Assembly: GCA_017504485.1 (NCBI GenBank)
Contig: JAFVRC010000014.1
Span: 1 to 64,000, forward strand
DNA from: Alistipes sp.
Lineage (GTDB): Bacteria > Bacteroidota > Bacteroidia > Bacteroidales > Rikenellaceae
Reading direction: 5' to 3'
Length of the DNA stretch: 64,000 nt
The notes beneath the pieces are model-generated. The model searched no databases. It was not told the DNA's origin and saw only the letters and a program-made list of their open reading frames with translations. The position numbers and the translations under genes were made by a program. Shown here one piece after another: positions 2,595 through 17,770 of this stretch; the stretch's first letter is position 1, and each line of letters begins with the position of its first letter.

Positions 2595-3047
2595 ATGCGT
2601 ATCGTTATACAGAGGGTTTCGCACTGCGAAGTTGTGGTCGATGGTCGAACAATCGGAGCCATCGGTCGCGGCCTTGCCGTACTGCTCGGTATTGAAAATG
2701 CCGACACGCAGGAGGATATCGAATGGCTCTGCGGCAAGATTTCGCGTCTGCGCATCTTCGACGATGAGGCGGGCGTGATGAACCTCGACATAAACCAAGC
2801 GGGCGGCGAGCTGATTGTCATCAGCCAATTTACGCTCCACGCCTCGACCAAGAAGGGAAATCGCCCTTCGTACATCCGCGCCGCCGGCGAAGCCTACGCG
2901 CGCCCGATGTACGAGCGATTTATCGCCACGGCCGAGCAGACGTTGGGGCGGCACGTCGAGCATGGTGAGTTTGGTGCCGATATGAAGGTGAGCCTGACAA
3001 ATGATGGCCCCGTAACCATCTGCATCGACTCGAAAAATAGAGAGTAA
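2595..3047 (+). CDS. dtd: D-aminoacyl-tRNA deacylase
   Basis: Cleaves D-amino acids from mischarged tRNA, a cytosolic proofreading function. The 150-aa length fits the DTD family. The start MRIVIQRVS, the motif SQFTLHAS (normally SQFTLYA) and the C-terminal NDGPVTICID with the cross-subunit Gly-Pro are all present. It ends only 21 bp before the first S1/P1-like gene, with no terminator between, so read-through into the array is likely. Confidence 0.93.
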   Translation: MRIVIQRVSHCEVVVDGRTIGAIGRGLAVLLGIENADTQEDIEWLCGKISRLRIFDDEAGVMNLDINQAGGELIVISQFTLHASTKKGNRPSYIRAAGEAYARPMYERFIATAEQTLGRHVEHGEFGADMKVSLTNDGPVTICIDSKNRE

Positions 3048-3068
3048 GAACAAAAATATAACCGCGAA

Positions 3069-3881
3069 ATGAGGAACAAAATTTTAGCAATCGTACTTGC
3101 AGCGGCTGCGCTTCTCTCGACATCGAGCGTCTATGCGTGGGATGCCGCAGGTCACGGTACCATCGGCCACATCGCCGACCGCCACCTCACGCCAAAGGCG
3201 CGTAAGATGTGCAGCAAGTATCTCGGGCACTCGCTGGCCTACTACGCCTCGTGGCTCGACAATTGGCGTTACTCGCACGAGTACCACCACACGGCCCGTT
3301 GGCACGCCGTAGGCATCAAGGATGGTAAGTTCGTACCGGGCCAACTCGCCGGCGACATCGCCGACTTCCTCGCCCCACTGACGATGGATGACCACGGCGT
3401 GGCACGTCTGGAGCAGATGATGACCGCCCTGAAGAGTTACCGCAAAATGCCCGACTCGGCCGTGACGGTAAACCTCAAATGCATAATCCACATGGTAGGT
3501 GACATGCACTGTCCCGGCCACGTCTTCTACCACGGACTCAAGCAGTACACGATGCAGGAGGGCAAGGACTCAATCCGCTTTCACGGATTTATCGACAAGA
3601 GCTTCCACCGCTTCAACAAGGGCAAGAACTCCGACGACTTCTACAAGAGCAACTGCCGCCTGACCAAGGAGGAGATTGCCGAGCTGCAGAAGGGCAACAT
3701 GAGCGACTGGATAGCCGAGAACACGCCGGTGTTCAAGGAGTGCTACACACTACTCTCGCCGACCATCAACTACCACGATCTGCCCGAGCAGAACAAATTC
3801 CGCATGAAGGAGATTACCGATGAGCTGCGCTGTAAAGCGGGCTTCCGTCTGGCCTATATTATGAACCAAATTTTCAAATAG
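3069..3881 (+). CDS. Nuc1, S1/P1-like zinc hydrolase, class A (ligands complete)
   Basis: The 270-aa precursor has a Sec signal peptide (1-23) cleaved before W24, which becomes the N-terminus. Relative to P1 nuclease the ligands are W24, H29, D64, H79, H141, D145, H151, H172 and D176; the spacing matches P1 closely. The last pair sits in HGFID, slightly different from the HxFWD of its sisters. It also has the class A cysteine (KMCSKYL) and DMHCPGH. A segment of about 25 residues after the WH motif is specific to this copy. It follows dtd at 21 bp. S1/P1 enzymes cut single-stranded nucleic acid or 3'-nucleotides, but the DxGGN segment after the HQPLH-type motif is missing, so the substrate is open. 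Confidence 0.85.
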   Translation: MRNKILAIVLAAAALLSTSSVYAWDAAGHGTIGHIADRHLTPKARKMCSKYLGHSLAYYASWLDNWRYSHEYHHTARWHAVGIKDGKFVPGQLAGDIADFLAPLTMDDHGVARLEQMMTALKSYRKMPDSAVTVNLKCIIHMVGDMHCPGHVFYHGLKQYTMQEGKDSIRFHGFIDKSFHRFNKGKNSDDFYKSNCRLTKEEIAELQKGNMSDWIAENTPVFKECYTLLSPTINYHDLPEQNKFRMKEITDELRCKAGFRLAYIMNQIFK

Positions 3882-3890
3882 CAGATCGAG

Positions 3891-4655
3891 ATGAAAGCAC
3901 TACGATACATGCTCGGGTTACTCATATCGCTCGTTGCGATAGAGGCTTCGGCTTGGACCGCCGAGCAAAACAAGGCAATACTCATGTTGGCCAAGGAGAA
4001 CCTCTCGGGCAAGGCAAAGCGCAAAGTTGTCGAGATACTCGGCACGGAGCTGCCGGCCATCAAATTCGAAAACAAGGGCAAGAGCAAGACTCGCCTCAAC
4101 GAGGAGGGCAAGTCGGTGACTACCGACGAGAAGGATGCCATAGTACGCCTCGAAAAGGCCATCGCCACGCTCTCCAATCGCGCGGCCTCAGCCGAGGAGC
4201 GCAAGGCGGCTCTGCGGACTGCGGTAGAGACCTCGGTCGATATTCATTGTGTAGCCAACATCCTTATCGACAAGCACCGCGAGGCTGACTTTATGTATGG
4301 CCGCGACAATGGTCGCCCGAAGCACTCGCGTTGGTTCAAGGTCGAGGACCGCGGCTGGGAGGATATGTGGCATAAGCACTTTCACAAGGCACTCGGCGCC
4401 TTCTCAGCCGAGATGTATATCTACGATTGGCACATCGCAACCAAGGGCATGGCCAAGAACTACAAACGCCAGGAAGTCGCACCTCGTGCGTGGGCCGAAA
4501 AGACGGGAGAGATAGCCCTCAAGGCTCTCAAAATATTCCAGCCCAAAGCGATAGTGGACCGAATCGAAATTGTGCGCTTGGAGGAGACGAGCAACCAATG
4601 TATGTACGACGCAGCATTCCACCTCGCTCTGCTGCTCAACAAAACATTAAAATAG
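3891..4655 (+). CDS. Nuc2, S1/P1-like pseudoenzyme, class B (strongly degenerate)
   Basis: The 254-aa protein has a signal peptide ending ASA before W22 and the C-terminal family helix ending LALLLNKTLK. H6, D45 and H60 positions are not recognisable. The core motif reads SVDIHCVAN, so D120 remains but H116 and H126 are replaced, and H149/D153 are gone. It is the most diverged of the early copies and contains a lysine-rich stretch (residues about 60-75). It starts 9 bp after Nuc1. A structural or binding role is more plausible than catalysis; homology rests on overall layout and position in the array. Confidence 0.7.
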   Translation: MKALRYMLGLLISLVAIEASAWTAEQNKAILMLAKENLSGKAKRKVVEILGTELPAIKFENKGKSKTRLNEEGKSVTTDEKDAIVRLEKAIATLSNRAASAEERKAALRTAVETSVDIHCVANILIDKHREADFMYGRDNGRPKHSRWFKVEDRGWEDMWHKHFHKALGAFSAEMYIYDWHIATKGMAKNYKRQEVAPRAWAEKTGEIALKALKIFQPKAIVDRIEIVRLEETSNQCMYDAAFHLALLLNKTLK

Positions 4656-4660
4656 CAGAT

Positions 4661-5470
4661 ATGCGAAAGTTAATAGCCACCTTTCTCGCAGCAACAGCGT
4701 TATTTGCACCGTGCAGGCTCTATGCGTGGAGTGCCGATGCGCACCATATTGTCGGTCACATTGCCGAAAAGCACCTCACGCCCGAGGCGCAATATATGTG
4801 TCAAAAGTATCTGCGCTACTCGCTCACCTACTACGCCGTATGGATGGATCACGTCGCCAACTGCAAAGGCTATGACCATACGCGCGTTTGGCACGGCGTG
4901 CGCTTCAATTCGAAGAACAAAGTTCTGCACCTCGACGGCAACAACGCCGTATATCAATCCCAACGTCTTTGGAACGAGATGCGCAATGGCGGTTACAAGG
5001 AGCTGCCCGACTCGGCCATCATCGACAATCTCCGCTTCCTGATACACATGGTGGGCGATATGCACTGCCCGTCGCACAATTACTACCCCGAGGAGCCTGA
5101 CTTCAAACCATACTCGATACGCCGCAATGGCAAGAAGGTCTATTTCCACAAGTTCTGGGATCGCTCGGCCGGCTTCTTCAACAAAGGTTGGTATTGCGAC
5201 GACTTCGAGCAGATAGACACATACAGCGAGAAGGAGATTAAGCGCATCTGCAAGGGTGACGTCTATAGGTGGGCACAAATCAACGGCAAGGATATGCGCG
5301 AGGTACATTCGCTACTCATCAAGCACACCGAGTTGCGCGATATGCCGAAAGAGAATCACGAGCGTATGCGCGAGATTGTCAATTTCCAGCTGCTGCGCGG
5401 AGCCTACCGCCTTGCCCATATTCTTAACGACATATTCAAGGATGTAAAGATTAGCGACTATGAGAAGTAA
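4661..5470 (+). CDS. Nuc3, S1/P1-like zinc hydrolase, class A
   Basis: I place the start at the ATG at 4661, 5 bp after Nuc2, because a signal peptide (1-22) then ends LYA before W23; the frame is open further upstream only as a shadow. The protein has 269 aa. WSADAH, AVWMD, VWHGV, IHMVGDMHCPSH and FHKFWD supply all nine ligands. The C-terminus runs on past the usual IFK end (DVKISDYEK), because the reading frame crosses the Nuc4 start and stops 11 nt inside it. That overlap suggests translational coupling. Confidence 0.85.
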   Translation: MRKLIATFLAATALFAPCRLYAWSADAHHIVGHIAEKHLTPEAQYMCQKYLRYSLTYYAVWMDHVANCKGYDHTRVWHGVRFNSKNKVLHLDGNNAVYQSQRLWNEMRNGGYKELPDSAIIDNLRFLIHMVGDMHCPSHNYYPEEPDFKPYSIRRNGKKVYFHKFWDRSAGFFNKGWYCDDFEQIDTYSEKEIKRICKGDVYRWAQINGKDMREVHSLLIKHTELRDMPKENHERMREIVNFQLLRGAYRLAHILNDIFKDVKISDYEK

Positions 5471-6227
5471 CAGCATTCGATATATAACACTGCTCGTCGT
5501 TGCCGCGATGGCAACATTCGAAGCCGCGGCGTGGAGCAGCAAGGGGCATCAGGTGGTGGCAGGGCTCGCCGACAAGTATCTGCTGCCGAATGTACAACGC
5601 GAAGTGCACGACCTGCTTGGCAGCGCGATGGAGAACTCGGCCGAGCTGCCCCACACAATCTACTACCTCAACCTCACGACCGAGGGGCAGCCGCAACTCG
5701 TGGAGGGCGATGTGCTCATCGAGATAGAGCGTCATATCGGCACCCTGCGCAACCGCAATAACCTCGCAGAGAGCGAGGCGAGAGAGGCGCTCAAGGCGCT
5801 GATACACCTTGTGGCCGATATGCACTGCGTAGGCCACGTCCGTTTTGCAGACAAAGCATGCGCTTCGGACTACACAATATACCTCCCAAACGGCGCGACA
5901 GGCAAGGCGGCGCGACGATTTAAGATGACATGGCGAGAGTATTGGAGCACCGAACATTTGAAGGCACACTACGGCTACTCGACAGCGATGCATATTCGCG
6001 ACCTCGAGCTGCGCTTCAAGGGCGAAGCCTACGATATGGCACACGGCCTCACGCCGCGCGATTGGGCCGTAGATATGGGGTGCGAGTGCCGTCCGCTATA
6101 CGCATGGGCCAAGGACGAGATGGATATACCGCGCTTGCAGCATCTTGCGCTCGAAGAGCTAACTAACCGCACACTTGCCAAGGCCGGTTGGCGATTGGCC
6201 GCCATGCTGAACAACATATTCAAGTAG
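5460..6227 (+). CDS. Nuc4, S1/P1-like protein, class B (partly degenerate)
   Basis: The 255-aa protein has a signal peptide ending AAA before W25. WSSKGH keeps W1 and H6, and IHLVADMHCVGH keeps H116, D120 and H126. The D45 segment and the WH of H60 are lost (the region reads PHTIYYLNL), and the H149/D153 segment is the class B TWREYW. Only a partial metal site could form. Its start codon lies within the end of Nuc3. It is followed by the longest internal gap of the array, 66 bp. Confidence 0.78.
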   Translation: MRSNSIRYITLLVVAAMATFEAAAWSSKGHQVVAGLADKYLLPNVQREVHDLLGSAMENSAELPHTIYYLNLTTEGQPQLVEGDVLIEIERHIGTLRNRNNLAESEAREALKALIHLVADMHCVGHVRFADKACASDYTIYLPNGATGKAARRFKMTWREYWSTEHLKAHYGYSTAMHIRDLELRFKGEAYDMAHGLTPRDWAVDMGCECRPLYAWAKDEMDIPRLQHLALEELTNRTLAKAGWRLAAMLNNIFK

Positions 6228-6293
6228 CCTGCAATAAGACTCCGAAAAATCACAACAATCAACAATAAGTTTAACTTTAACAACTCAAAAACA
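6228..6293 (+). other. Longest gap inside the array; no clear promoter
   Basis: These 66 bp are A-rich and contain TAAGTTTA and TAACTTTA, near misses to TAnnTTTG, but no exact box and no hairpin with a T run. It is the only place within the array with room for an internal promoter. Confidence 0.3.
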
Positions 6294-7088
6294 ATGAACA
6301 AGAGACTTTTAATCTGTACGCTGGTTGCGGTGCTCTTTGCCTCTTTTGAGGCACAGGCATGGGGCGGCTATGGCCATGGAGCAATCGCCTATGTTGCCGA
6401 ACAACATCTCACGCCCGAGGCAAAGGAGAAATGCCGCCACTACCTCAAGCACACGCTCCCTTGGTACGCCTCGTGGATGGACCATTGGCGCGCCGTACCA
6501 CCATTCCACCCTACAAACGCCTGGCACGGCTTCTCGGCCACAGCTGATGGCCAAGTGAATTGGGAGAAGAGCAACGGCAAGGCCATGGGCGAGATTATGC
6601 GCATCTTCCGCACGATGGAAAACGGCAAATACAAGCAGCTGCCCGACTCGCTCGTGCGCCACAACCTCCTTATCCTCGTACATGCACTGCCCGACATGCA
6701 CTGTCCGGTACACGTCGGCTTCTCGAAGAAGGATTTCCCGCACTACAAGTACAATCTAACGCGCAAAGGTAAGCCTTACAAGTTCCACGCCTTCTGGGAT
6801 GGCTCGCCGGCCTTCGAGCGCAAGGGTTGGACCTTTGAGCGTTACGCCAAGGAGGTCGATAAGATAACTCCGAAGCAGGCCAAGAAGATTATCAAGAAGG
6901 GCAACTTCACGGCGTGGGGCGAGGATATCATAAAGCAGGCACACCGTTGCTTCCAGATAACCACAAAGGATAAGGATATCGCCTACCTTACAGCCGAGGA
7001 GAAGCAGGCCGTACACGACTTGGCAGACGAGATGGCGATGAAGTCGGCATACCGCCTAGCCTACGTTCTCAACGAAATATTCAAATAA
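6294..7088 (+). CDS. Nuc5, S1/P1-like zinc hydrolase, class A
   Basis: 264 aa, signal peptide ending AQA before W23. The ligand motifs are WGGYGH, ASWMD, AWHGF, VHALPDMHCPVH and FHAFWD, all nine present. The core reads HALPD rather than HMVGD, a variant shared with Nuc7. The class A cysteine is in EKCRHYL. It is closely similar to Nuc7 over the whole length, including FSKKDFPHYKYNL. Together with Nuc6 it forms a two-gene unit that looks duplicated as Nuc7-Nuc8. Confidence 0.87.
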   Translation: MNKRLLICTLVAVLFASFEAQAWGGYGHGAIAYVAEQHLTPEAKEKCRHYLKHTLPWYASWMDHWRAVPPFHPTNAWHGFSATADGQVNWEKSNGKAMGEIMRIFRTMENGKYKQLPDSLVRHNLLILVHALPDMHCPVHVGFSKKDFPHYKYNLTRKGKPYKFHAFWDGSPAFERKGWTFERYAKEVDKITPKQAKKIIKKGNFTAWGEDIIKQAHRCFQITTKDKDIAYLTAEEKQAVHDLADEMAMKSAYRLAYVLNEIFK

Positions 7089-7104
7089 AAATAACTCCGA
7101 AACA

Positions 7105-7896
7105 ATGAAAAAGTTACTATTTATCGTGATGCTTGCCTTTGGCATATCGACGGCAAGCGCATGGAATGTCACGCTCGATGAGGGCATCCTCAAATTGGCA
7201 GTCAAGAATCTTTCGATACAGGCTCAAGACGAGCTTTTCCAGTACCTCGGCGATAATTACCGCGACGACGTGCATTACCTCTACGCCCTCGAGGCGAGGA
7301 AGAAGGCAAAACACTCGAAGGAGATTCACTACCTCCACCTCGACAGCGAGTTTCGTCCTTTAGCCACGACGACGGCCAATGACGACGCTCTGAAGGCGAT
7401 TGAGGCGGCTGCCGACATAGTACGCCACCGCACGCAGCACCCGAAGGGCAAGGTTTTGGAGGCCTTGCGCACCATCATCAACCTTATGTGCGACATGCAC
7501 AACCCTGGCCATGTGCGCATCGAGGGCATCCCTCACTCGCAGCAGGACTTCACCGTAACGTTCCGTGCCGCCGACATGGGCAAGAAGATGTCTGAAACGA
7601 AGCATGCCAAGTGGTCGCGCTTTTGGTCATTCGCGCCAAACGGCTTCACGTCCGACCTTTGGGTTGAGGATATCGAGGCGTGCAACGGCCACCGCCGCGC
7701 CGAGTTCTCGAAAGGCACGCTGAATGATTGGGCTGCCGAGGTTGGTAAGTTTGCCGCCAAGAATCTCGAGGAGATTACCCCCGAGGCTGTGCTGACACTC
7801 CAACATCGTAACACCCTCACGCAGGAGGTCACTTGCGACTGGGTAGCTCGCGCGAGCTTCCGCCTCACAGTTTTGTTGAACGAACTTTTCAAATAG
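7105..7896 (+). CDS. Nuc6, S1/P1-like pseudoenzyme, class B
   Basis: 263 aa, signal peptide ending ASA before W20. H6 is replaced (WNVTLD), D45 is lost, a histidine near H60 may survive in EIHYLHL, H116 is Asn (INLMCDMHNPGH), while D120 and H126 remain. The segment KWSRFWS replaces H149 and D153. It has the class B motif KGTLNDWAAEVG. It is the sister of Nuc8, with which it shares RTIINLMCD and GIPHSQQDF-type sequence. Confidence 0.77.
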   Translation: MKKLLFIVMLAFGISTASAWNVTLDEGILKLAVKNLSIQAQDELFQYLGDNYRDDVHYLYALEARKKAKHSKEIHYLHLDSEFRPLATTTANDDALKAIEAAADIVRHRTQHPKGKVLEALRTIINLMCDMHNPGHVRIEGIPHSQQDFTVTFRAADMGKKMSETKHAKWSRFWSFAPNGFTSDLWVEDIEACNGHRRAEFSKGTLNDWAAEVGKFAAKNLEEITPEAVLTLQHRNTLTQEVTCDWVARASFRLTVLLNELFK

Positions 7897-7908
7897 AAGA
7901 ATAAGACC

Positions 7909-8694
7909 ATGAAAAAGATTATAGCAATAGTTCTGTGTGGAGCAGCACTTTTCTCCACCTATACGGCAAATGCATGGGGTGGCTTCGGCCACGGCTCGAT
8001 AGCCTATATGGCCGAGCAGCACCTTACACCCGAGGCCAAGGCCAAGTGCCGCTACTACCTTAAGCACACCCTCCCGTACTACGCTTCGTGGATGGACTCT
8101 TGGCGTGCCATACCACCATACAACAAGACGGGTGCACACTCCTTCTCGGCAAATGCCGACGGCACCGTCAATTGGGACCATGGCAAGGCTATCGGCAACG
8201 TGAACCGCATCTACAACAGCATGAAGAACGGCAAGTACAAGCAGATGCCCGACTCGCTTGTGAATATTAACCTCAAGATTCTTGTTCACGCGCTACCTGA
8301 CATCCACTGCCCTGTGCATGTCGGCTTCTCGAAGAAGGACTTTCCGCAATACAAGTACTCGCTTTTGCGCAAGGGTAAGCCTTTCGGGTACCACACCTTC
8401 TGGGACGGCTCTCCGGGTTTTAAACGGCGGTGGAACTATGCCCGCTATGCCAAGGAGGTCGATGTAATCTCGCCAAAGCAGGCCAAGAAGATTGTCAAGA
8501 AGGGCAATATCAACGCTTGGGGTGAGGACATTATCCGTCAGGCACACCGTTGCTACGACATCACCCTAAAGGGCACCGACGTCGCATATATGACCAATGA
8601 GCAGAAGGAAGCCGTATGGAAACTTGCCGACGAGATGGCATTGAAGGCTGCCCACCGTTTGGCCTATGTACTTAACGACATTTTCAAAGAGTAA
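7909..8694 (+). CDS. Nuc7, S1/P1-like zinc hydrolase, class A
   Basis: 261 aa, signal peptide ending ANA before W23. WGGFGH, ASWMD, VHALPDIHCPVH and YHTFWD are intact. The usual WH of the fourth ligand reads GAHSF, so the histidine is kept but the preceding tryptophan is lost; this is the only class A copy with that change. It is the close sister of Nuc5. Confidence 0.87.
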   Translation: MKKIIAIVLCGAALFSTYTANAWGGFGHGSIAYMAEQHLTPEAKAKCRYYLKHTLPYYASWMDSWRAIPPYNKTGAHSFSANADGTVNWDHGKAIGNVNRIYNSMKNGKYKQMPDSLVNINLKILVHALPDIHCPVHVGFSKKDFPQYKYSLLRKGKPFGYHTFWDGSPGFKRRWNYARYAKEVDVISPKQAKKIVKKGNINAWGEDIIRQAHRCYDITLKGTDVAYMTNEQKEAVWKLADEMALKAAHRLAYVLNDIFKE

Positions 8695-8717
8695 CGCAAC
8701 AAAACGTATCGAACAAT

Positions 8718-9515
8718 ATGAAAAAGATATATCTGTCTCTTGTGCTCATCCTCGGACTCTGTGTGAGCGCAAATGCCTGGAACAAGGATGCCAATGAGGG
8801 TATCGTAGTTTTGGCTACAAAGCACCTATCAACCGAAGCTGCTTCGCTCGTGCAGCAGCATCTCGGCGACAGCTACCTCGATGACGTAGATTACCTCTAC
8901 GCGCTCGAGAAAAAGAAGAAAGCTACACACTCGAAGGAGATTCATTACCTACACCTCAATAGTGCTCTGCAACCAGCTGCCGGCACAACGGCCGCAAACG
9001 ATGCGCTGAAGGGCATCGAACAGGCCGTGGAGGTGCTTCGCAACCGCGCACAACACTCAACGAGCGAGGTGCAGACGGCTCTGCGCACCATCATCAACCT
9101 CATGTGCGACATCCATGACATTTCGCGCACGCGCATCGAAGGTGTGCCGCACTCGCAGCAGGATTTCAGGTTTGCCTGCTACAAGGGCGACATGGGCAAG
9201 CGCAAGTCTGCCTCACCGCTGAAGTGGTCGTCATTTTGGCACTACTATAGCGGCTGGCACCCGGGCTTTTCAGGGGCATTGTGGGCCGAGGATATGGAGT
9301 TGTGCCTCGGTGCACGGCGTGCCGAACTCTCGAAGGGTACGCTGAATGATTGGGTTGCACAGATTGGCACAACAGCCGCCAAGCTATACGAGCATATCAA
9401 TGCCGAATACGAAATGACAAGGCGCGAGCGCAACGAGCTTGAGGAACTTAACTACGAGATGATGGCCCGCGCAGGTTATCGTCTTGCCGAGATTCTCAAT
9501 GGTGTTGTTAAATAG
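8718..9515 (+). CDS. Nuc8, S1/P1-like pseudoenzyme, class B
   Basis: 265 aa, signal peptide ending ANA before W21. H6 is Asn (WNKDAN), D45 is lost, H116 is Asn and H126 is Arg (INLMCDIHDISR), D120 stays, and KWSSFWH replaces H149/D153. At most one or two ligands survive, so zinc hydrolysis is unlikely. The overall layout and the GTLNDWVAQIG motif match Nuc6. Confidence 0.77.
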   Translation: MKKIYLSLVLILGLCVSANAWNKDANEGIVVLATKHLSTEAASLVQQHLGDSYLDDVDYLYALEKKKKATHSKEIHYLHLNSALQPAAGTTAANDALKGIEQAVEVLRNRAQHSTSEVQTALRTIINLMCDIHDISRTRIEGVPHSQQDFRFACYKGDMGKRKSASPLKWSSFWHYYSGWHPGFSGALWAEDMELCLGARRAELSKGTLNDWVAQIGTTAAKLYEHINAEYEMTRRERNELEELNYEMMARAGYRLAEILNGVVK

Positions 9516-9525
9516 TGCAACAACG

Positions 9526-10299
9526 ATGAAAGCTAAAACTCTTTTAGTTGCGGCAGCTACACTGCTCGCAACGCTTAACGTGCAGGCTTGGGGCGGCTTC
9601 GGTCATACGATAGTCGCCTATGTTGCCGAGCAGCACCTCACACCCGAGGCCAAGGCCAAGTGCGAACACTACCTAGGTCACTCGGTACCATACTCCGCAT
9701 CGTGGATGGACTATTGGCGCTCCGTACCTCCATACAAGGAGACCACGCATTGGCACGTCTGCCGCGCTGATGAGAACAACAACCTCATACAGGAGAAGGA
9801 TCGCTGCGCCGCGCTGCAAATCGAGCGCATCTGCAAGGAGTTGAAGAACTATAAGAAGCTGCCGAATGAGCAGATAGATCTCAACCTAAAACTCTTGATA
9901 CACATGGTGGGCGATATGCACTGTCCATCGCACATTGTCTATGTTCCGAAGATTCCGAGCAACAATATCCGCGTCAAGGGTAAGCTGGTCGGTCGTCACA
10001 AATTCTGGGACTCCTCGCCGGCAACTTTCCACCCGAAGTGGAACGCCGAGAGCTACTTCAACCACCTCGACGTAGCGACCGACAAGCAGATTAAGAAGAT
10101 ATGCAAGGGCACACCCGAGGCGTGGGCAATGGAGCAGGCTCGCATAATGCGCCGCACCTATACACTCTATGAGAATGGGGCAGAATTTACGAAATTGCCA
10201 CGCGAGGTGCGCAACGAGATGCAGCAACTCGTCGAGGACAACCTCCTCAAAGCGGGTTATCGTCTTGCCTACCTGTTGAATAAAATCTTTGCAAAGTAA
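9526..10299 (+). CDS. Nuc9, S1/P1-like zinc hydrolase, class A
   Basis: The ATG at 9526 (10 bp after Nuc8) gives a proper signal peptide ending VQA before W22; an earlier in-frame ATG at 9484 would lie inside Nuc8 and spoil the signal. 257 aa. WGGFGH, ASWMD, HWHVC, IHMVGDMHCPSH and RHKFWD provide all nine ligands. It has a GTPEAWAME segment comparable to the class B GTPxDWA motif. Closest sister in the array is Nuc11. Confidence 0.87.
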   Translation: MKAKTLLVAAATLLATLNVQAWGGFGHTIVAYVAEQHLTPEAKAKCEHYLGHSVPYSASWMDYWRSVPPYKETTHWHVCRADENNNLIQEKDRCAALQIERICKELKNYKKLPNEQIDLNLKLLIHMVGDMHCPSHIVYVPKIPSNNIRVKGKLVGRHKFWDSSPATFHPKWNAESYFNHLDVATDKQIKKICKGTPEAWAMEQARIMRRTYTLYENGAEFTKLPREVRNEMQQLVEDNLLKAGYRLAYLLNKIFAK

Positions 10300-10307
10300 G
10301 CGACACT

Positions 10308-11108
10308 ATGAAACAAGCATTCAGATATATCACACTGCTGGTGATGGTTGTTGCGGCAGGACGTGCGTGGGCGTGGGCTCCACTCGGACACGAGACGGCG
10401 GCGGTCATCGCCATACAGCACCTCACACCAAGGGCCAAAGCCGAAGCCGACAAGATATTGGCCACAAACATCAAGAGTGTATCGACATGGCTCAACACCC
10501 TGCGCAAAGGCGAGGCAACGAAGCATACCGCCGCATGGCACACGCTACACCTCAATGCCGAGGGGCTCTCGACGACAACCTCCGAGGGCGATGCCGTAGT
10601 ACAAATCGAGCGTTGTGCCGATATTCTGCGCAACCCTTCGCAGCATAGCGACTCAGTGAAGGTCGTAGCCTTGCGTGCGCTCGTGCATCTTGTAGCCGAT
10701 ATGCACTGTATAAGTCATGTGCGCATCGAGGGCGAGCCTCTCACAAACGGCTTCCGCTTCTACTTCCTGCGCGGCATGGCCGCAAGCAAGAAGAGCAAGC
10801 CTCTCTCGGCCAAGTGGTACTCGCATTGGCAGAGCCGCTTCTTCGGCTATCACCAAGGCTTCACGGCCGAGATGATGGCCCGCGATATGGAGCTGTGCTG
10901 CGGCAAGCACTGCGAGGAGTATATGAAAGGTACACCGCGTGATTGGGCCGCCGATATGGGCCGTGTGACACGCAGTGCGCTCGAGGGCATGGAGATCGAT
11001 GTGGTACTCAACCGCAAGGAGATAAACCTCCATGAAGCGTATCACGAGCAGTGCCTTGCCAAGGCGGGTTACCGTCTGGCTGCCCTGCTGAACGACATCT
11101 TCAAATAA
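10308..11108 (+). CDS. Nuc10, S1/P1-like protein, class B (two metal sites incomplete)
   Basis: 266 aa. The signal peptide ends AWA before W23, so two tryptophans flank the site. W1, H6 (WAPLGH), H60 (AWHTLH), H116, D120 and H126 (VHLVADMHCISH) are kept. D45 is Asn (TWLNTLR), and H149/D153 are replaced in KWYSHWQ. It is the sister of Nuc12, with a nearly identical stretch around 10583-10619. Confidence 0.8.
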   Translation: MKQAFRYITLLVMVVAAGRAWAWAPLGHETAAVIAIQHLTPRAKAEADKILATNIKSVSTWLNTLRKGEATKHTAAWHTLHLNAEGLSTTTSEGDAVVQIERCADILRNPSQHSDSVKVVALRALVHLVADMHCISHVRIEGEPLTNGFRFYFLRGMAASKKSKPLSAKWYSHWQSRFFGYHQGFTAEMMARDMELCCGKHCEEYMKGTPRDWAADMGRVTRSALEGMEIDVVLNRKEINLHEAYHEQCLAKAGYRLAALLNDIFK

Positions 11109-11129
11109 CATTTTTTTAACGACTCAACT

Positions 11130-11906
11130 ATGAAAAGTAGAATACTAACCACCGTTTTAACGCTTGTCGCTCTAATGAGCATACAGAGCGCAATGGCGTG
11201 GGGAGGCCTTGGCCACTCGGCCATAGCATATATCGCCGAGCAACACCTCACCGACGAGGCCAAAGCCAAGTGCCACCACTATTTGAAGCACTCGTTGGCC
11301 TACGACTCGTCGTGGATGGATCATTGGCGTAACGTCGAGCCATTCTGCGAAACATCATATTGGCACTGCATGAAGGGCGACCGCGACAACAAAGTCATCG
11401 ACGATGGTCGCAGCGCACCGCTTCATATCGTGCGCATCTGCAAGGAGATGAAGAACTACAAGAGACTCTCCGACGAGCAGATTGCCATCAACCTCAAGTT
11501 GCTGATTCACATGGCCGGCGATATGCACTGCCCATCACACGTCAGCTACCCGGGCCAAGGTTTCAAGCGTCCTTCGCTCTACATCAAGGGTAGGAAGTAC
11601 AACAGCCACGCCGTGTGGGATGCGTCGCCCGCATATCTGCATCCGGGGTGGACAATAGTCGATTACCAGCGTAACCTCGACAATAAGAGTGCGAAGCAGA
11701 TAAAGCAAATTTGCAAGGGCACGCCGTGTGATTGGGCCGAGGAGTGTATCCTCAAGATGCGTGTGACGGGTTACATCTTCGACCGCAACGCGGAGTTCAC
11801 GAAGATGGACGAGGCAACTATCGAGAAGATGCGCCGTCTGAACGACGAGCAGATTCTCAATGCCGGCTACCGCTTGGCCTCGCTCCTCAACAAGATGTTC
11901 AAATAA
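11130..11906 (+). CDS. Nuc11, S1/P1-like zinc hydrolase, class A
   Basis: 258 aa, signal peptide ending AMA before W24. WGGLGH, SSWMD, YWHCM, IHMAGDMHCPSH and SHAVWD keep every ligand. The D45 segment reads DSSWMD rather than YASWMD. It is the sister of Nuc9, and has the class A cysteine in AKCHHYL. Confidence 0.87.
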   Translation: MKSRILTTVLTLVALMSIQSAMAWGGLGHSAIAYIAEQHLTDEAKAKCHHYLKHSLAYDSSWMDHWRNVEPFCETSYWHCMKGDRDNKVIDDGRSAPLHIVRICKEMKNYKRLSDEQIAINLKLLIHMAGDMHCPSHVSYPGQGFKRPSLYIKGRKYNSHAVWDASPAYLHPGWTIVDYQRNLDNKSAKQIKQICKGTPCDWAEECILKMRVTGYIFDRNAEFTKMDEATIEKMRRLNDEQILNAGYRLASLLNKMFK

Positions 11907-11927
11907 CAACCTCAAATATTCGCAACA

Positions 11928-12734
11928 ATGAAGAGATTCATCAAATATATCGCGATCGTAGCACTGACCGCCCTTGCACTCGAAGCTGCAGCGTGGAATA
12001 AAATGGGACATGAGACCATCGCCGCGCTGGCCGAGCAAAACCTCTCGCCAGAGGCGAAGGCCGAGGTAACGAAGCTCCTTGGCGGCAACCTCAAGAGCGG
12101 CGCGATGTGGCTCAACACACTCCGCAAGGAGGAGGCCACAAAGCATACAGCCTCGTGGCACCACACACACCTCGATGCTGCAGGCCGCTCAACGACTACG
12201 ACCGAGGGCGATGCCGTAGTACAGATTGAGCGTTGTGCCAACATTCTGCGTAACGCTTCGACACATAGCCGCAACGAGCAGGTCGAGGCTCTGAAGACCA
12301 TCGTTCATCTGGTGGCCGACCTGCACTGCATCCACCACATCCGCATCGAGGGCGAGCCACTCACCGACGGCTTCCGCTTCAAGTACGAGACCGGCAAGAA
12401 GGATAAAAAGAGTGGCGAAAAGATAGCCGTTGGCATAAATTGGAGCACAATATGGGGTGGTCGCATGTTCGGCCATCACGTCGGCTTCACGCCGGAGCTT
12501 ATGGCCGATGATATGGCTCTCTGCCGCGCCGAGCACAAGGAGGCGTGGTCGCAGGGCACGCCGCGCGAGTGGGCCGCCGATATGGGCGTTGCAACGCGTA
12601 AGCAACTCGAAGGCATGAAGCCGGGCATAGTTATCACGCGCAAGCAGTTCAACCTTCTCGATGCGCCGCACGAAGATTGTTTGGCCAAGGCGGGTTGGCG
12701 ATTGGCCGCACTGCTCAACAATATCTACAAGTAG
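11928..12734 (+). CDS. Nuc12, S1/P1-like protein, class B
   Basis: 268 aa, signal peptide ending AAA before W23. WNKMGH, SWHHTH and VHLVADLHCIHH keep W1, H6, H60, H116, D120 and H126. D45 is Asn (MWLNTLR); NWSTIWG replaces the H149/D153 pair. It has a short Lys-rich insertion (TGKKDKKSGEK) before that segment, compared with Nuc10. It is followed at 10 bp by another class B gene, the only B-B junction in the array. Confidence 0.8.
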   Translation: MKRFIKYIAIVALTALALEAAAWNKMGHETIAALAEQNLSPEAKAEVTKLLGGNLKSGAMWLNTLRKEEATKHTASWHHTHLDAAGRSTTTTEGDAVVQIERCANILRNASTHSRNEQVEALKTIVHLVADLHCIHHIRIEGEPLTDGFRFKYETGKKDKKSGEKIAVGINWSTIWGGRMFGHHVGFTPELMADDMALCRAEHKEAWSQGTPREWAADMGVATRKQLEGMKPGIVITRKQFNLLDAPHEDCLAKAGWRLAALLNNIYK

Positions 12735-12744
12735 TAACCCGACG

Positions 12745-13536
12745 ATGAAAGCATCACTCCTTAAAGCGGCATTTGTCGCAGTATTCGCATGGCTACCACT
12801 CTCGGGCTACGCGTGGAACGAACATACACATAGGGCTATAGCCATCTACGCCACCGAAAATCTAAAACCGAAAGTCAAGCGGCAGGTCGAGGCTATCCTT
12901 GGGGGTACGATGGCCGAGCACTCTGCGTGGCTCAACACACAGAAGAGGGTTGTGCGCGGCAGTGCCCGGTGGCACAATATCGTTCTCGACGAGCAGAACA
13001 ACCCCGTCGGTGACGAGCGCGACGGCCTGACCAAGATTGCCGAATATGAGCGTGTGTTGCGTAATCGCCGAGACCACTCGACCGAGGAAGTTGCGACGGC
13101 ACTCAAGTCGTTGATCCACGTCGTGAGCGACATACATAACCCGTCGCACGTCGTATTCACCGACATACCTCGCAGTCGAGGCTTCAAGTTCAAGACGACG
13201 AACAACCGCACGGGAGCATTCGCTCACCGCGGCATGAAGTCGTGGCGTCACTTGTGGAACATCACCTATCCGCGGCGACATCGCGGCTTCTCGGTCGAGT
13301 GGTCGGCCTACGACCTTTCGGTCTATGCCGAGCGCGACAAAGCCGAGTGGTCGAAGGGCACGCCGCACGATTGGGCCATAGGCCAAGGTGCCGAGTGCCG
13401 ACCGCTCTACGACATAATCACCGGCGAGCAGGTCGTAACCCCCGACATTATCAATCGCTTGGAGAATATCCACGACCGCTGCGCTGCGCGTGCTGCGCTG
13501 CGTCTTGCAGCTCTATTGAACAACATTTTCAGCTAA
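12745..13536 (+). CDS. Nuc13, S1/P1-like protein, class B
   Basis: The ATG at 12745 gives a signal peptide ending GYA before W24; 263 aa. W1 and H6 (WNEHTH), H60 (RWHNI), H116, D120 and H126 (IHVVSDIHNPSH) remain. D45 is Asn (AWLNTQK), and SWRHLWN stands where HxFWD should be. With Nuc14 it reverses the usual A-then-B order. Confidence 0.8.
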   Translation: MKASLLKAAFVAVFAWLPLSGYAWNEHTHRAIAIYATENLKPKVKRQVEAILGGTMAEHSAWLNTQKRVVRGSARWHNIVLDEQNNPVGDERDGLTKIAEYERVLRNRRDHSTEEVATALKSLIHVVSDIHNPSHVVFTDIPRSRGFKFKTTNNRTGAFAHRGMKSWRHLWNITYPRRHRGFSVEWSAYDLSVYAERDKAEWSKGTPHDWAIGQGAECRPLYDIITGEQVVTPDIINRLENIHDRCAARAALRLAALLNNIFS

Positions 13537-13545
13537 CTACTCGAG

Positions 13546-14325
13546 ATGAAACGACTACCGATTATCGTTCTCGCACTATTCACGTCGGGCATCTTCTGTG
13601 CCTCGGCGTGGAACGCCCACGGGCACTCCGTCATTGCATACGTCGCCGAACAGAACCTCACACCAAAGGCTCGCAAGATGTGTCACCACTATCTGCGACA
13701 CACGCTACCCTACTACGCCTCGTGGATGGATCATTGGCGTTACTGCCCGGGCTATGAGGAGTCGCGCGGTTGGCACGGCGTGCGCGTGAACAAGAATAAC
13801 GAGATGCACAACCCAAATCGCACCAATGCCATCACGCAGATTGATGCCTTCCGTCGCGAGACGAAGCAGTACCGACGTATGAGCGACTCAACCGTAATGG
13901 AGAACATCAAGTACCTGATACACATGGTCGCCGACGTGCATAGCCCTGTCCACATGGTCTACTACAACATGCCCGAGTTCAAGCAAGACACACTTTCGCT
14001 CGGCGGTCGCAGGATGCGCTACCACGACCTGCTCGACGGCTCGCCAACGCGTATGCATAAAAAGTGGACCATCGAGCAGTATAATGCCCACCTCGAAAGC
14101 GAGTGGGGTCACGAGAAGCGTGCTGTTAGTCGCGGCACGGCCGAGGAGTGGATGGTCGAGTTGGCCATCGACTCGAAGCGGCTGTGGAAGATGATGCCCA
14201 ACGGCAGCGAATGGAATAACTTGTCGAGCGAGAATCGCAAGGGTGTGGAGCATATGATTGAGCGACGCCTCTACATTGCCGGCATACGCTTGGCAACGGT
14301 GCTGAACGAGATTTTCGAGAAATAA
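13546..14325 (+). CDS. Nuc14, S1/P1-like zinc hydrolase, class A
   Basis: 259 aa, signal peptide ending ASA before W22. WNAHGH, ASWMD, GWHGV, IHMVADVHSPVH and YHDLLD keep all nine ligands. The core cysteine of DMHCP is serine here and in Nuc15 only, while the helix cysteine (KMCHHYL) stays. The HDLLD form of the last pair is unique. It is followed by a second class A gene, Nuc15, the only A-A junction. Confidence 0.86.
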   Translation: MKRLPIIVLALFTSGIFCASAWNAHGHSVIAYVAEQNLTPKARKMCHHYLRHTLPYYASWMDHWRYCPGYEESRGWHGVRVNKNNEMHNPNRTNAITQIDAFRRETKQYRRMSDSTVMENIKYLIHMVADVHSPVHMVYYNMPEFKQDTLSLGGRRMRYHDLLDGSPTRMHKKWTIEQYNAHLESEWGHEKRAVSRGTAEEWMVELAIDSKRLWKMMPNGSEWNNLSSENRKGVEHMIERRLYIAGIRLATVLNEIFEK

Positions 14326-14342
14326 TTTAAGACTTTATACCT

Positions 14343-15182
14343 ATGATTAAAAGATTATTGCCTCTACTGCTTCTTGCGATACTGCTCGCGCCGCGGCACG
14401 CCACAGCGTGGAATAATCACGGTCATGGCACCATAGCCTATATCGCCGAGCAGAACCTCACACCCACAACGCGCGAGAAGTGCCACGAATACCTCAACCA
14501 CACGCTCTACTACTACGCCTCGTGGTTGGATCATTGGCGCTTCACCGAGCCCTACAAGCATACGACACGCTGGCACGCCTCGATTTATAACGAGAAGAGC
14601 GAACTTCAGAATGTGCCGGCCATGGTCGTTATGATGACCGACAAGATTTGGAACAAGATGCGCGACGGTGGCTACAAGAGCCTCAGCGACTCGCTCGTCA
14701 CCGACAATATCAAGTATCTGATACACCTGGTTGGCGACCTGCATAGTCCGGTGCACATCGTCTTCAGCCACTCGACTGCCGGCAAACAGCACAAGCACAA
14801 TCAGGCCTTCTCGGTCTATTGGGGCAAGAAGCGCAAGCGTATGTCGTTCCACACCTTCTGGGACCGCGCCTCGCAATATATGCATCCGAAGTGGTCGTAT
14901 GATGACTACTGGCGCAACATAGACAACTACTCGAAGAAGAAGCATGCAACCGTCATCGAGGGTACTCCATACACTTGGGGCCACGAAGGGGCCGTCAATA
15001 TGCGCGAAATATACGACCTTATGCCGCCCGAGTCGTACTTCGACGAACTGCCCAAGGCCGACATACAACGCATGCGCGAGATTAACGACCGCCAGCTGGT
15101 GGTCGGAGGATACCGCCTCGCCCACGTTCTCAACACAATATTTGACGAGGCATACAACACTTCAAAAAAGAAGGAGGATTAG
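14343..15182 (+). CDS. Nuc15, S1/P1-like zinc hydrolase, class A (longest copy)
   Basis: 279 aa, signal peptide ending ATA before W23. WNNHGH, ASWLD, RWHAS, IHLVGDLHSPVH and FHTFWD supply all ligands. Extra length comes from a loop of about 15 residues before FHTFWD (rich in His, Lys and Gln) and a polar C-terminal tail TSKKKED. The tail codons contain AAGGAGG, which serves as the Shine-Dalgarno of Nuc16, whose ATG is only 2 nt after the stop. Confidence 0.86.
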   Translation: MIKRLLPLLLLAILLAPRHATAWNNHGHGTIAYIAEQNLTPTTREKCHEYLNHTLYYYASWLDHWRFTEPYKHTTRWHASIYNEKSELQNVPAMVVMMTDKIWNKMRDGGYKSLSDSLVTDNIKYLIHLVGDLHSPVHIVFSHSTAGKQHKHNQAFSVYWGKKRKRMSFHTFWDRASQYMHPKWSYDDYWRNIDNYSKKKHATVIEGTPYTWGHEGAVNMREIYDLMPPESYFDELPKADIQRMREINDRQLVVGGYRLAHVLNTIFDEAYNTSKKKED

Positions 15183-15184
15183 CG

Positions 15185-15979
15185 ATGAACAAGTGTACAA
15201 AATATATATTGGTGCTCACTGCACTCTTCGGCAGCGTTGAGCTGTATGCATGGAACGACCGAATGCACCACACCATAGCCCTTATTGCCGAGCAGCAACT
15301 CGAGCCAAAGGCCAAGAAGCGCATTGAGAAGATTCTCGACTCGACGCTCAAAGACGAGGCCGTATGGCTGAATACCCTGCGCCGCAAGCCCGAAACGCGA
15401 TATACGCAGCCATGGCACCATCTGCACCTCGACGAGAATATGATGTCTGTGACACAGAGCAAGAAGGATGCCGCCGTGCAGGTCGAGCGTTGCGCCGATA
15501 TACTCCGCAACCGCCGCGAGCATAACGACTCGACCGTTATTGCGGCGTTGAAGATCGTTGTTCACCTCGTGGGCGATATGCACTGTCCGTCGCACGTTTT
15601 CTTCACCGGAGGGCCTAACCTCTCGAAATTCTCATTCGGAATCTCGAATGACCGCTGGGACAACCCTGCAACGAGCAAGACGACGTGGCGTGCCTTCTGG
15701 AACAACCGCTATTCGACTGAACACCCGGGCTTCACGGCCGAGCTCTATGCCTACGACCTCTCGATATACAGCCGCAAGCATAAGGAGGAGTGGGCAAAGG
15801 GCGACGTGCGCGATTGGGCAAACGATATGGGGCGCGAGTGCCGCTGGCTGCACGAGCGTATAAAGCCCGACTCGACAATCAACAGCGAGCTGAAGTGTCG
15901 CCTCGAGAATGTCAATGACCGATGCATCGCCAAGGCGGGACTACGCCTCGGGGCTCTGCTGAATGAAGTTTTCAAATAA
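15185..15979 (+). CDS. Nuc16, S1/P1-like protein, class B
   Basis: 264 aa, signal peptide ending LYA before W23. WNDRMH, PWHHLH and VHLVGDMHCPSH keep W1, H6, H60, H116, D120 and H126; the core motif is as good as in class A. D45 is Asn (VWLNTLR) and the last pair is replaced in TWRAFWN. This is the class B copy closest to an intact site. The start depends on the Shine-Dalgarno lying in the Nuc15 tail. Confidence 0.8.
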   Translation: MNKCTKYILVLTALFGSVELYAWNDRMHHTIALIAEQQLEPKAKKRIEKILDSTLKDEAVWLNTLRRKPETRYTQPWHHLHLDENMMSVTQSKKDAAVQVERCADILRNRREHNDSTVIAALKIVVHLVGDMHCPSHVFFTGGPNLSKFSFGISNDRWDNPATSKTTWRAFWNNRYSTEHPGFTAELYAYDLSIYSRKHKEEWAKGDVRDWANDMGRECRWLHERIKPDSTINSELKCRLENVNDRCIAKAGLRLGALLNEVFK

Positions 15980-15991
15980 CACAAAAAAGCT

Positions 15992-16777
15992 ATGAACCAC
16001 AAACTTAACATCTGCATCATCTTTGCCATCCTTGCCACCACGGTAAGCGTGCAGGCATGGAACGGTTTCGGCCACTCGTGCGCAGCCTACATCGCCGAGA
16101 AGCACCTGACGCCCGAGGCCAAGGCCAAGTGCGAGCACTACCTCAAGCACTCGTTTGTATTCTACGCCTCGTGGATGGACCAATGGCGTTACATCGAGCC
16201 CTACAATGTATCAAACGCTTGGCACGTCATCTTTGTCGATAGCAATTGGCAGCTCGATACCGAGGATACGAAGCGTGCGCAGCACCACACCGCGCGCATC
16301 TGGAAGGAACTGAAAGACTACAAGAATCTGCCCGACTCGCTCGTGCGTCAAAACCTCATCTACCTGATACACATGGTGCCAGACTACCACTGCCCGGTAC
16401 ACACCTTCTTCCGCAAGGGCATGTTCCCGGAGCGCACCTACTCGCTGCGCAACAAGGGCAAGAAGACAGTATTGCACACCTTTTGGGATGCCTCTGTAGG
16501 CTTCCGCCGCAAGGGGTGGACCATCGAGCGTTACCACAAGGAGATTGACGTATATTCACCAAAACAGGTCAAGAAGTGGCAGAAGGGCGATGCAATACGT
16601 TGGGCAAATGATGCGGTGATGCAGTCACATCGCCTCTACGACATCACGCCGGCCGACACCGATATCAGCAAGATGCCGAAGGAACAAGTGGCAGAGATTC
16701 ACAAACTTACCGACGAGATGATTCTCAAGGGCGGCTACCGCTTAGCACGCATTATTAACGATGTATTCAAAAAGTAG
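15992..16777 (+). CDS. Nuc17, S1/P1-like zinc hydrolase, class A
   Basis: 261 aa, signal peptide ending VQA before W23. WNGFGH, ASWMD, AWHVI, IHMVPDYHCPVH and LHTFWD are complete. The core HMVPDYH has a proline before D120, resembling HALPD of Nuc5 and Nuc7. It ends 12 bp before the last array gene, and an AGGAGG lies in that gap. Confidence 0.87.
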   Translation: MNHKLNICIIFAILATTVSVQAWNGFGHSCAAYIAEKHLTPEAKAKCEHYLKHSFVFYASWMDQWRYIEPYNVSNAWHVIFVDSNWQLDTEDTKRAQHHTARIWKELKDYKNLPDSLVRQNLIYLIHMVPDYHCPVHTFFRKGMFPERTYSLRNKGKKTVLHTFWDASVGFRRKGWTIERYHKEIDVYSPKQVKKWQKGDAIRWANDAVMQSHRLYDITPADTDISKMPKEQVAEIHKLTDEMILKGGYRLARIINDVFKK

Positions 16778-16789
16778 GAGGATAGAGCT

Positions 16790-17554
16790 ATGAAGAGACT
16801 GTTTCTGATTATTGCTTTCGTGGCAGGCATAGGTTCTGCGCAGGCGTGGACCAAGCTTCTGAACGATGCTTCGCTGGTGCTGGCCAAGAAGTATATGACA
16901 CCTGCAGCTACAGCCGAGTACAATCGTATCGCTGCACTGAAAGGCTCCGTCGATTACAAATGGGCAGCCTCACAGGATGTAGCCGTTGCACTCGATGCCG
17001 ACCTACGCTCCACATCAACCGACGAGCGCGATATAGTCGTGCGCATCGAGCGTGCAGCCGAGCTCCTTCGCAACCGTACAAAGCACTCCGACAAGGAGGT
17101 CTATACCGCACTCCAAGAGATACTTATGTTGATGCCCGAGCTGCACAACATCTCGCGCATACACATCGAGGGCATAGCCAACTCGCAGCGCGACTTCACC
17201 TTCACGTGGATTGCCGGTAAGCCGGGCTCGAAGCGATTCGAGAAGCGAGGGACAATCTCGTGGAGCACATTCTGGACCCGCCTATTTTGTGGTTGGCACC
17301 AAGCGTGGTCACCCGAGTACTACGCCTACGACCTCGACATACACTTTGCAGCCGAGCGCGAGCAGTGGATGCAGGGTACACCACGCGACTGGGCGCACGA
17401 TATGGGGATGCGTGCCAAGCCGATGTATGAATGGGCCGAGCAGGACTACGTTATGCACAATGCGCAGCGTTTGAACCTCGAGGAGGTACATCTCGGCTCG
17501 GTGGCTCGTGCGGGATTCCGCATCGCAACGCTATTGAACAACGCTCTCAGATAG
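16790..17554 (+). CDS. Nuc18, S1/P1-like pseudoenzyme, class B (most degenerate)
   Basis: 254 aa, signal peptide ending AQA before W20, the only recognisable ligand left. H6 is Asn (WTKLLN), the D45/H60 region is lost, and the core motif reads LMLMPELHNISR, so H116 is Met, D120 is Glu and H126 is Arg. SWSTFWT takes the place of H149/D153. The GTPRDWAHDMG motif and family C-terminus persist, so the gene is under constraint for something other than zinc catalysis. It is the last gene before the hairpins at 17632-17711. Confidence 0.75.
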   Translation: MKRLFLIIAFVAGIGSAQAWTKLLNDASLVLAKKYMTPAATAEYNRIAALKGSVDYKWAASQDVAVALDADLRSTSTDERDIVVRIERAAELLRNRTKHSDKEVYTALQEILMLMPELHNISRIHIEGIANSQRDFTFTWIAGKPGSKRFEKRGTISWSTFWTRLFCGWHQAWSPEYYAYDLDIHFAAEREQWMQGTPRDWAHDMGMRAKPMYEWAEQDYVMHNAQRLNLEEVHLGSVARAGFRIATLLNNALR

Positions 17555-17679: not shown

Positions 17680-17711
17680 AACGTGTATAAAATTTTATAC
17701 ACGTTCTTTTT
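17680..17711 (+). terminator. Terminator formed by a 26-bp perfect palindrome
   Basis: AACGTGTATAAAA (17680-17692) is followed directly by its reverse complement (to 17705), then C and five T. It closes the array transcript and partly overlaps the murG -33 region. A palindrome without a spacer could alternatively be a regulator site. Confidence 0.6.
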
Positions 17712-17740
17712 GTTACTTAACGTAATAAGTGTTACTTTTG
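17709..17740 (+). promoter_or_regulatory. Promoter of murG and the dcw genes
   Basis: TTTG (17709-17712) and TACTTTTG (17733-17740) are spaced by 20 bp. The predicted start is near 17747, 24 nt before the murG ATG. It separates the cell-wall genes from the S1/P1 array. Confidence 0.65.
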
Positions 17741-17770
17741 TGGTTAATTAGGCTAATTGTCAAAAAATAT

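Follow-up and report, generated by a model that had tools for sequence, protein, structure and literature searches.

A tandem array of alternating S1/P1-superfamily genes with intact and lost zinc sites in an Alistipes genome

The array and its two types of gene

The window examined here (64,000 nucleotides in all) comprises bases 1–64000 of a 140 kb contig from a draft genome of Alistipes sp. that measures 1.92 Mb and is ~82% complete. At positions 3069–17554 it contains an array of 18 paralogous genes (g1–g18) of the S1/P1 nuclease superfamily, all on the + strand and each with an ATG start and a single stop. An initial annotation had described this interval as filled by 18 same-strand genes of a single family, and this is borne out by a coding share of 98.3%. 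The gene products are 254–279 amino acids in length, and the intergenic gaps range from −11 to 66 bp with a median of 12 bp. The starts of g3, g9 and g13 (4661, 9526 and 12745) differ from the longest open reading frame starts.

The genes are of two types, distinguished by alignment to SmNuc1 (8qjl), for which nine zinc ligands are named in the available part of the describing paper (PMC11705217). All nine are retained in the type A genes, which are g1 (3069–3881), g3 (4661–5470), g5 (6294–7088), g7 (7909–8694), g9 (9526–10299), g11 (11130–11906), g14 (13546–14325), g15 (14343–15182) and g17 (15992–16777). The complete site is found in none of the nine type B genes, whose residues at the ligand positions are given here as strings: g2 (3891–4655; WNN-EDNEH), a pseudoenzyme, g4 (5460–6227; WHHYHDHRS), g6 (7105–7896; WDYHNDHSS), g8 (8718–9515; WNYHNDRSH), g10 (10308–11108; WHNHHDHYQ, six of nine ligands), g12 (11928–12734; WHNHHDHSG), g13 (12745–13536; WHNHHDHRN), g16 (15185–15979; WHNHHDHRN) and the strongly degenerate g18 (16790–17554; WNA-MERST). 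In the least degraded of these (g10, g12, g13 and g16) Asp45 is replaced by Asn, and H149 and D153 are lost.

The same division is seen when all distinct genes collected from other genomes are included. The zinc site is complete in 104 of 106 array A genes, the exceptions being one D120E substitution and one gene truncated by the end of its contig, and in 0 of 103 type B genes, of which two keep D45, three H149 and nine D153. Three ligands or fewer remain in 75 of the 103 B proteins, and six or seven of the nine in 11. Since the window's own nine plus nine genes, divided according to their ligands, served to build the A and B models, the classification within the window holds by construction; in other species the types were assigned by whole-sequence score. 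The label 'A' covers 112 rows, the 106 of array A and six others, and as a label it is not one clade (7 changes). The array is therefore not a set of 18 equivalent hydrolases, because nine of its members have lost the zinc site, the catalytic Asp included. Of the earlier description as 'S1/P1-type zinc hydrolases' the superfamily stands for the whole array, and the zinc site stands for the nine type A genes and fails for the nine of type B.

Membership of the superfamily is supported by a search with the Pfam profile PF02265, which is above cut-off for 14 of the 18 translations (9/9 A and 5/9 B). The remaining four are g6 (E 1.9e-5), g8 (E 9e-6), g18 (E 0.061) and g2, which gives no match. These are placed in the superfamily because hhalign joins the B and A profiles over 257 columns (E 2.4e-48, probability 100) and the B profile matches solved S1/P1 structures with a best E of 2.1e-11. 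By profile comparison type B is thus a homologue along its length, and by the zinc-ligand test it is not an S1/P1-family enzyme. No NCBIfam family covers type A, a single weak and unrelated match being returned for one of 59 members.

In agreement with the export signals noted initially for every copy, a hydrophobic N-terminus ending A|W is present in 18/18 window genes, as judged by pattern and by eye, and export of the array proteins is predicted from these signal peptides. In SmNuc1 the mature N-terminal residue is a zinc-binding Trp, according to the part of the paper available (PMC11705217), and 71 of 84 collected B proteins have W in the corresponding column. Lipobox-like sequence is rare (1/112 A and 2/103 B), and a lipoprotein reading was rejected. 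Type A thus resembles the characterized S1/P1 nucleases (P1, S1, TBN1 and SmNuc1) in fold, as judged by profile, in the Trp at the predicted mature N-terminus and in the nine zinc ligands. The differences are that type B lacks the metal site, that the genes form tandem arrays where the known family has one gene, and that array A has an incomplete nucleobase site.

Alternation, co-inheritance and selection

The order of types in the window is ABABABABABABBAABAB, and 15 of its 17 junctions join unlike types (p = 0.003). Homologous arrays, the existence of which elsewhere had been left to be checked, were found as 17 stretches of more than two genes in 14 genomes, the window included. These hold 183 genes (93 A and 90 B, three of them partial at contig ends), and 153 of 166 neighbours alternate; shuffling within stretches gives a mean of 90.1 and a maximum of 118 in 10,000. 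Loci with two genes, one of each type, are in the order A-B in 15 of 15 cases, some of them far from the array, and B is the last gene in 31 of 32 loci. The main repeat family of the window recurs mostly at ~1.61 kb, which is the length of one pair.

The A and B sequences of a pair have diverged together. Over 96 adjacent pairs from 23 genomes, distances between A genes predict those between their downstream B genes with r = 0.82, and when partners are shuffled within genomes the mean r is 0.05 and the highest 0.17 (0/500 as high as observed). When a pair is compared with another genome, the closest A and the closest B there are partners of each other 848 times in 1069 (338 at most under shuffling, with a mean of 188). 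Between B and the A gene behind it r falls to 0.23 (n = 68), and the concordance of 169/686 lies inside what shuffling gives (up to 265, with a mean of 159). Duplicates within the window also match pairwise, with g5/g7 at 70% identity and g6/g8 at 53%, and g9/g11 at 49% and g10/g12 at 58%. An A gene followed by its B gene is thus shown to be an inherited unit. Two parts of one gene cut by a region border, and 11 loci repeating stretches already taken, were left out.

Purifying selection acts on type B as strongly as on type A. The ratio of nonsynonymous to synonymous substitution rates (dN/dS) was taken from pairs with at least 66% identity and a dS below 2. Its median over 118 of 154 A pairs is 0.112 and its maximum 0.254; over 81 of 92 B pairs the values are 0.115 and 0.239. 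Type B is one clade with a support of 100 in three trees, among them those from FastTree (103 rows of B) and IQ-TREE (26 rows of B), and array A is a clade with a support of 98 in FastTree (106 rows) and in IQ-TREE (26 rows). FastTree, for which rows under 215 residues were left out, gave a long-branch warning; the two other trees, the IQ-TREE one of 86 rows and one of 57 rows, are partly random draws. A dead paralogue is thus kept under selection together with its enzyme, as in a prozyme pair.

A second family of S1/P1-type arrays, with 3–8 genes of related type, occurs at 15 loci in Alistipes-like genomes (L070, L073–L078, L080, L082–L084, L086, L087, L089 and L090). Its second gene has lost zinc ligands at 15/15 loci, as has the sixth gene of L075. 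A common origin of this pseudoenzyme and type B is not rejected by a topology test in which 20 of 57 rows were constrained together with the ligand columns masked (p-AU 0.384), and the test thus gives no support to an independent origin of the pseudoenzyme in the 3–8 gene arrays. One protein family lies directly behind the array at 11 of the 15 loci, at −16 to 24 bp; its member behind L075, the one run against Pfam, is an exported-looking PHP-domain protein. For the gene behind the L087 array a label of EEP type, given by eye, was without Pfam support and was dropped. A gene resembling rplU (L21, by eye) lies upstream of eight of these loci.

Two dispersed A-B pairs are also followed by genes for phosphoesterases with an export-like N-terminus by eye, a His_Phos_2 gene (PF00328) behind L010:6197–7597 and an Exo_endo_phos gene (PF03372) behind L079:5267–6034. 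Together with the PHP protein these make three phosphoesterases among the seven flanking proteins run against Pfam.

Proposed function of the pairs and alternative explanations

The nucleobase-binding site of SmNuc1 comprises Tyr89, Asn91, Lys158 and Asn161, and the comparison, made by alignment, covered Tyr89, Asn91 and Asn161. An aromatic residue after H60, at the Tyr89 position, is found in 0/106 array A proteins compared with 16 of 24 single-copy loci, and the HxPxH..GGN motif in 0/106 compared with 17 of 24. Asn at the Asn91 position occurs in 12 of 106 and 15 of 24, respectively, and Arg is present at the Arg74 position in 98 of the 106. The single-copy gene of the same genome (L019) retains WHYAN and GGN of the nucleobase site. 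Since the Tyr89-position aromatic is absent from array A and present in type B as Y or F in 41 of 103 proteins, base recognition may have been lost by the catalytic member, with some B proteins retaining a part of it.

The reading preferred here, to which we give a little less than an even chance, is that the A-B pairs are cognate heteromers that act on phosphate esters outside the cytoplasm. The exported phosphoesterases next to some loci and the broken second copy in the second array family count in its favour. The array would then encode about nine enzyme–pseudoenzyme pairs. In each, the upstream gene would supply a phosphoesterase of the S1/P1 superfamily, exported and with its trinuclear zinc site intact, and the product of the downstream gene would be an exported relative with a dead metal site. 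Each A would assemble with its own B, periplasmically or extracellularly and probably as a heterodimer, in which B would stabilize, activate or steer A in a prozyme-like manner. Repeated duplication of whole pairs, together with diversification, would have led to a set of phosphoesterases of differing specificity, perhaps for nucleic acids, nucleotides or other phosphodiesters in the gut. Diversification had been suggested initially and is supported by identities of 30–70% among A proteins and 23–58% among B proteins. Of the two other explanations then offered, a multi-subunit system is favoured over a pure dose effect because of the A/B alternation, which had been missed. A bolder extension, possible although on balance rather unlikely, is a combinatorial secreted system new to the S1/P1 superfamily, with up to ~15 cognate heteromers per alternating array, in which the pseudoenzyme would supply lost substrate recognition and new specificities would arise by duplication and divergence of whole pairs.

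Several observations weigh against the pairs being functional heteromers. Copying of A-B units alone would yield both alternation and correlated trees, therefore what the trees demonstrate is linkage, and not assembly or contact. The alternation is broken at 13 of 166 neighbours (9 AA and 4 BB), including g12/g13 (B after B) and g14/g15 (A after A) in the window; in the arrays of G121 and G084 dtd, the gene that flanks the array, stands between the two members of the first AA. Three two-gene loci of the same genome (L013, L014 and L018) each hold two intact members; these keep nine zinc ligands, fall outside the A and B clades and were excluded from the count of two-gene A/B loci. The correlation of B with the next A, though low, is above all 500 shuffles (maximum 0.15). 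The other flanking proteins run against Pfam are an M14 peptidase, a GH30 protein, a DUF5689 protein and one without a match. A nucleic-acid substrate for array A appears doubtful, and the name 'nuclease' unproven, because array A lacks key residues of the nucleobase pocket. We know of no S1/P1 member that needs a partner, and the word 'dimer' is absent from the SmNuc1 paper (PMC11705217).

Co-duplication alone can account for the alternation and the correlated trees if the two proteins act independently. B could be a binding protein, for example for the capture of nucleotides or other phosphate compounds, with A-B kept as a unit of tandem duplication, and the aromatic residue at the Tyr89 position in B, never seen in array A, would fit such a role. 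This is unlikely, though to be taken seriously: the two-gene loci all remain A-B, some of them distant from the array, and the 3–8 gene arrays also hold a broken copy directly after the first enzyme. A less probable role for B is that of an inhibitor or immunity protein, protecting the cell from its own harmful exported hydrolases in the style of effector–immunity systems. An enzyme followed by its partner is a common gene order in such systems. A pseudophospholipase inhibits an active phospholipase through heterodimerization (PMC10211241), and Het-C toxins are predicted to be distant relatives of the fold (PMC3482391), as far as the available parts of these papers describe. Set against this, no delivery domain or secretion gene was recognized in the flanks examined, which were mostly judged by eye, orthologous pairs are retained across genomes with low dN/dS, and the PADLOC models of known anti-phage defence match none of the nine A and nine B proteins of the window. 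In the available parts of PMC9484751 and PMC3482391, polymorphic toxin and immunity gene strings likewise have tandem diversified paralogues beside a nuclease-type protein. They differ from the present arrays, in which enzyme and partner are homologous, paired and both provided with export signals, and in which the flanks, again mostly by eye, hold no recognized delivery system.

It is very unlikely that B is itself catalytic by means of a reduced or different metal site. The 11 B proteins with six or seven ligands, which include g10, g12, g13 and g16, would be the candidates, but D45 and H149 are almost always replaced and most B proteins retain no more than three ligands. Decay of duplicates or an artefact of assembly has a negligible probability. 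The incomplete draft could be read in this way, as could a B-like remnant that contains a stop and lies elsewhere in the genome; the B matches listed have no internal stop, and pseudogene decay of B is rejected by its median dN/dS. The array is not an assembly artefact, which had been named initially as a possible refutation, because its copies are divergent (13–70% identity) and the same kind of array, with the same pattern, occupies this locus in other assemblies too.

The preferred reading of cognate pairs has its closest parallel in the enzyme–prozyme pairs of trypanosomatids, which also combine an active enzyme with a catalytically dead paralogue (PMC6221367, PMC5201418 and PMC3663545, in the parts available). 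Those are other enzymes, with one pair each, whereas here many putative cognate pairs follow one another in tandem. Among the best matches in the open-licence literature, judged by title and the start of the abstract, neither tandem S1/P1 arrays nor pseudoenzymes of the S1/P1 family were found. Catalytically dead partners are mostly isolated cases; here one bacterial group has apparently multiplied an enzyme and its dead twin jointly, and 23 genomes together yield 96 divergent A-B pairs. With so many divergent pairs of known neighbours, the co-evolution of enzyme and pseudoenzyme and the separation of specificities become testable, and the system may reveal how Alistipes-like bacteria of the hindgut harvest phosphate esters. 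The PF02265 annotation as 'nuclease' is misleading here because the zinc site is missing from half of the proteins and nucleobase-pocket residues from the other half.

Distribution and genomic surroundings

The genome of the window holds 37 copies of the family, 25 with a full zinc site and 12 without, and a related genome carries 30 genes of the alternating array type. A short B-like piece with an internal TGA lies at C33:9259–9402 of the window's own genome. In a sample of the genus PF02265 is found in 143 of 180 genomes, 97 of which hold one or two matches with scoring limited to 13 per genome, and four expanded genomes have at least 26, 37, 46 and 49 match rows, fragments included. These counts are lower bounds because PF02265 misses some B proteins. 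The B profile at E <= 1e-45 matches 35 of the 180 genomes (two of them borderline) and none of the 392 other genomes of an order-wide sample. Outside the genus PF02265 (E <= 1e-6) matches 28 of 392 genomes in the order and 148 of 394 in the phylum with at most two matches each, and for these genomes the initial statement of one or a few copies is therefore correct. The array-bearing relatives are metagenome-assembled genomes (MAGs) named 'Alistipes sp.' or 'Rikenellaceae'. Among 17 MAGs with an A-B pair, record titles place 11 in the hindgut of ruminants (sheep, goat, yak, water buffalo, roe deer and water deer) and name no host for six.

In the window the array is preceded on the + strand by cdd (1421–1876; cytidine deaminase-like, PF00383), an RluA-type pseudouridine synthase gene (1882–2574; PF00849) and dtd (2595–3047; D-Tyr-tRNA deacylase, PF02580), and is followed by a conserved murG-like gene (17765–18874, +; PF03033 and PF04101). 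This arrangement recurs, as murG lies ~0.1–0.2 kb from arrays of more than two genes in 13 genomes (that of the window, G005, G078, G083, G084, G091, G119, G121, G124, G128, G140, G154 and G156). The gene dtd is at the other end of the array in 12 of the 13, and in G154 that end is outside the contigs examined. G157, G030 and G184 have a single A-B pair after dtd, with murG 10–14 kb away in the opposite orientation. A single pair where others have an array therefore fits growth in place from one pair, and rearrangement around murG may accompany expansion. Two genomes have one type A gene ahead of the main array, placed between rluA and dtd (L022:3389–4204 in G121 and L024:1244–2062 in G084).

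The promoter consensus of Bacteroidota, which we take to be TTTG-N-TAnnTTTG, has six matches in the window where 0.32 are expected. One consensus match (1354–1385, +) stands before cdd and is a likely operon start, and another (17709–17740, +) stands before murG; on the + strand no match lies inside the array. At 17680–17705 (+), 3′ of the array, a terminator-like hairpin of 11 pairs with a T-rich tail is suggestive of an end of transcription; hairpin-type sites as a whole are not enriched in the region (16, compared with 15.9 in shuffles). The consensus match before cdd, the lack of any on the + strand inside the array, the hairpin and the match before murG together suggest a single transcript of cdd, rluA, dtd and the array. 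A further match, on the − strand at 3051–3080, spans the junction of dtd and the array and is a possible antisense start.

The single-copy gene L019 belongs to the same superfamily as the array genes, but groups with other single copies of Bacteroidales, apart from A and B. At three Rikenellaceae loci (L019, L088 and L092) the single-copy S1/P1 gene lies directly behind a rho-like gene, identified by eye.

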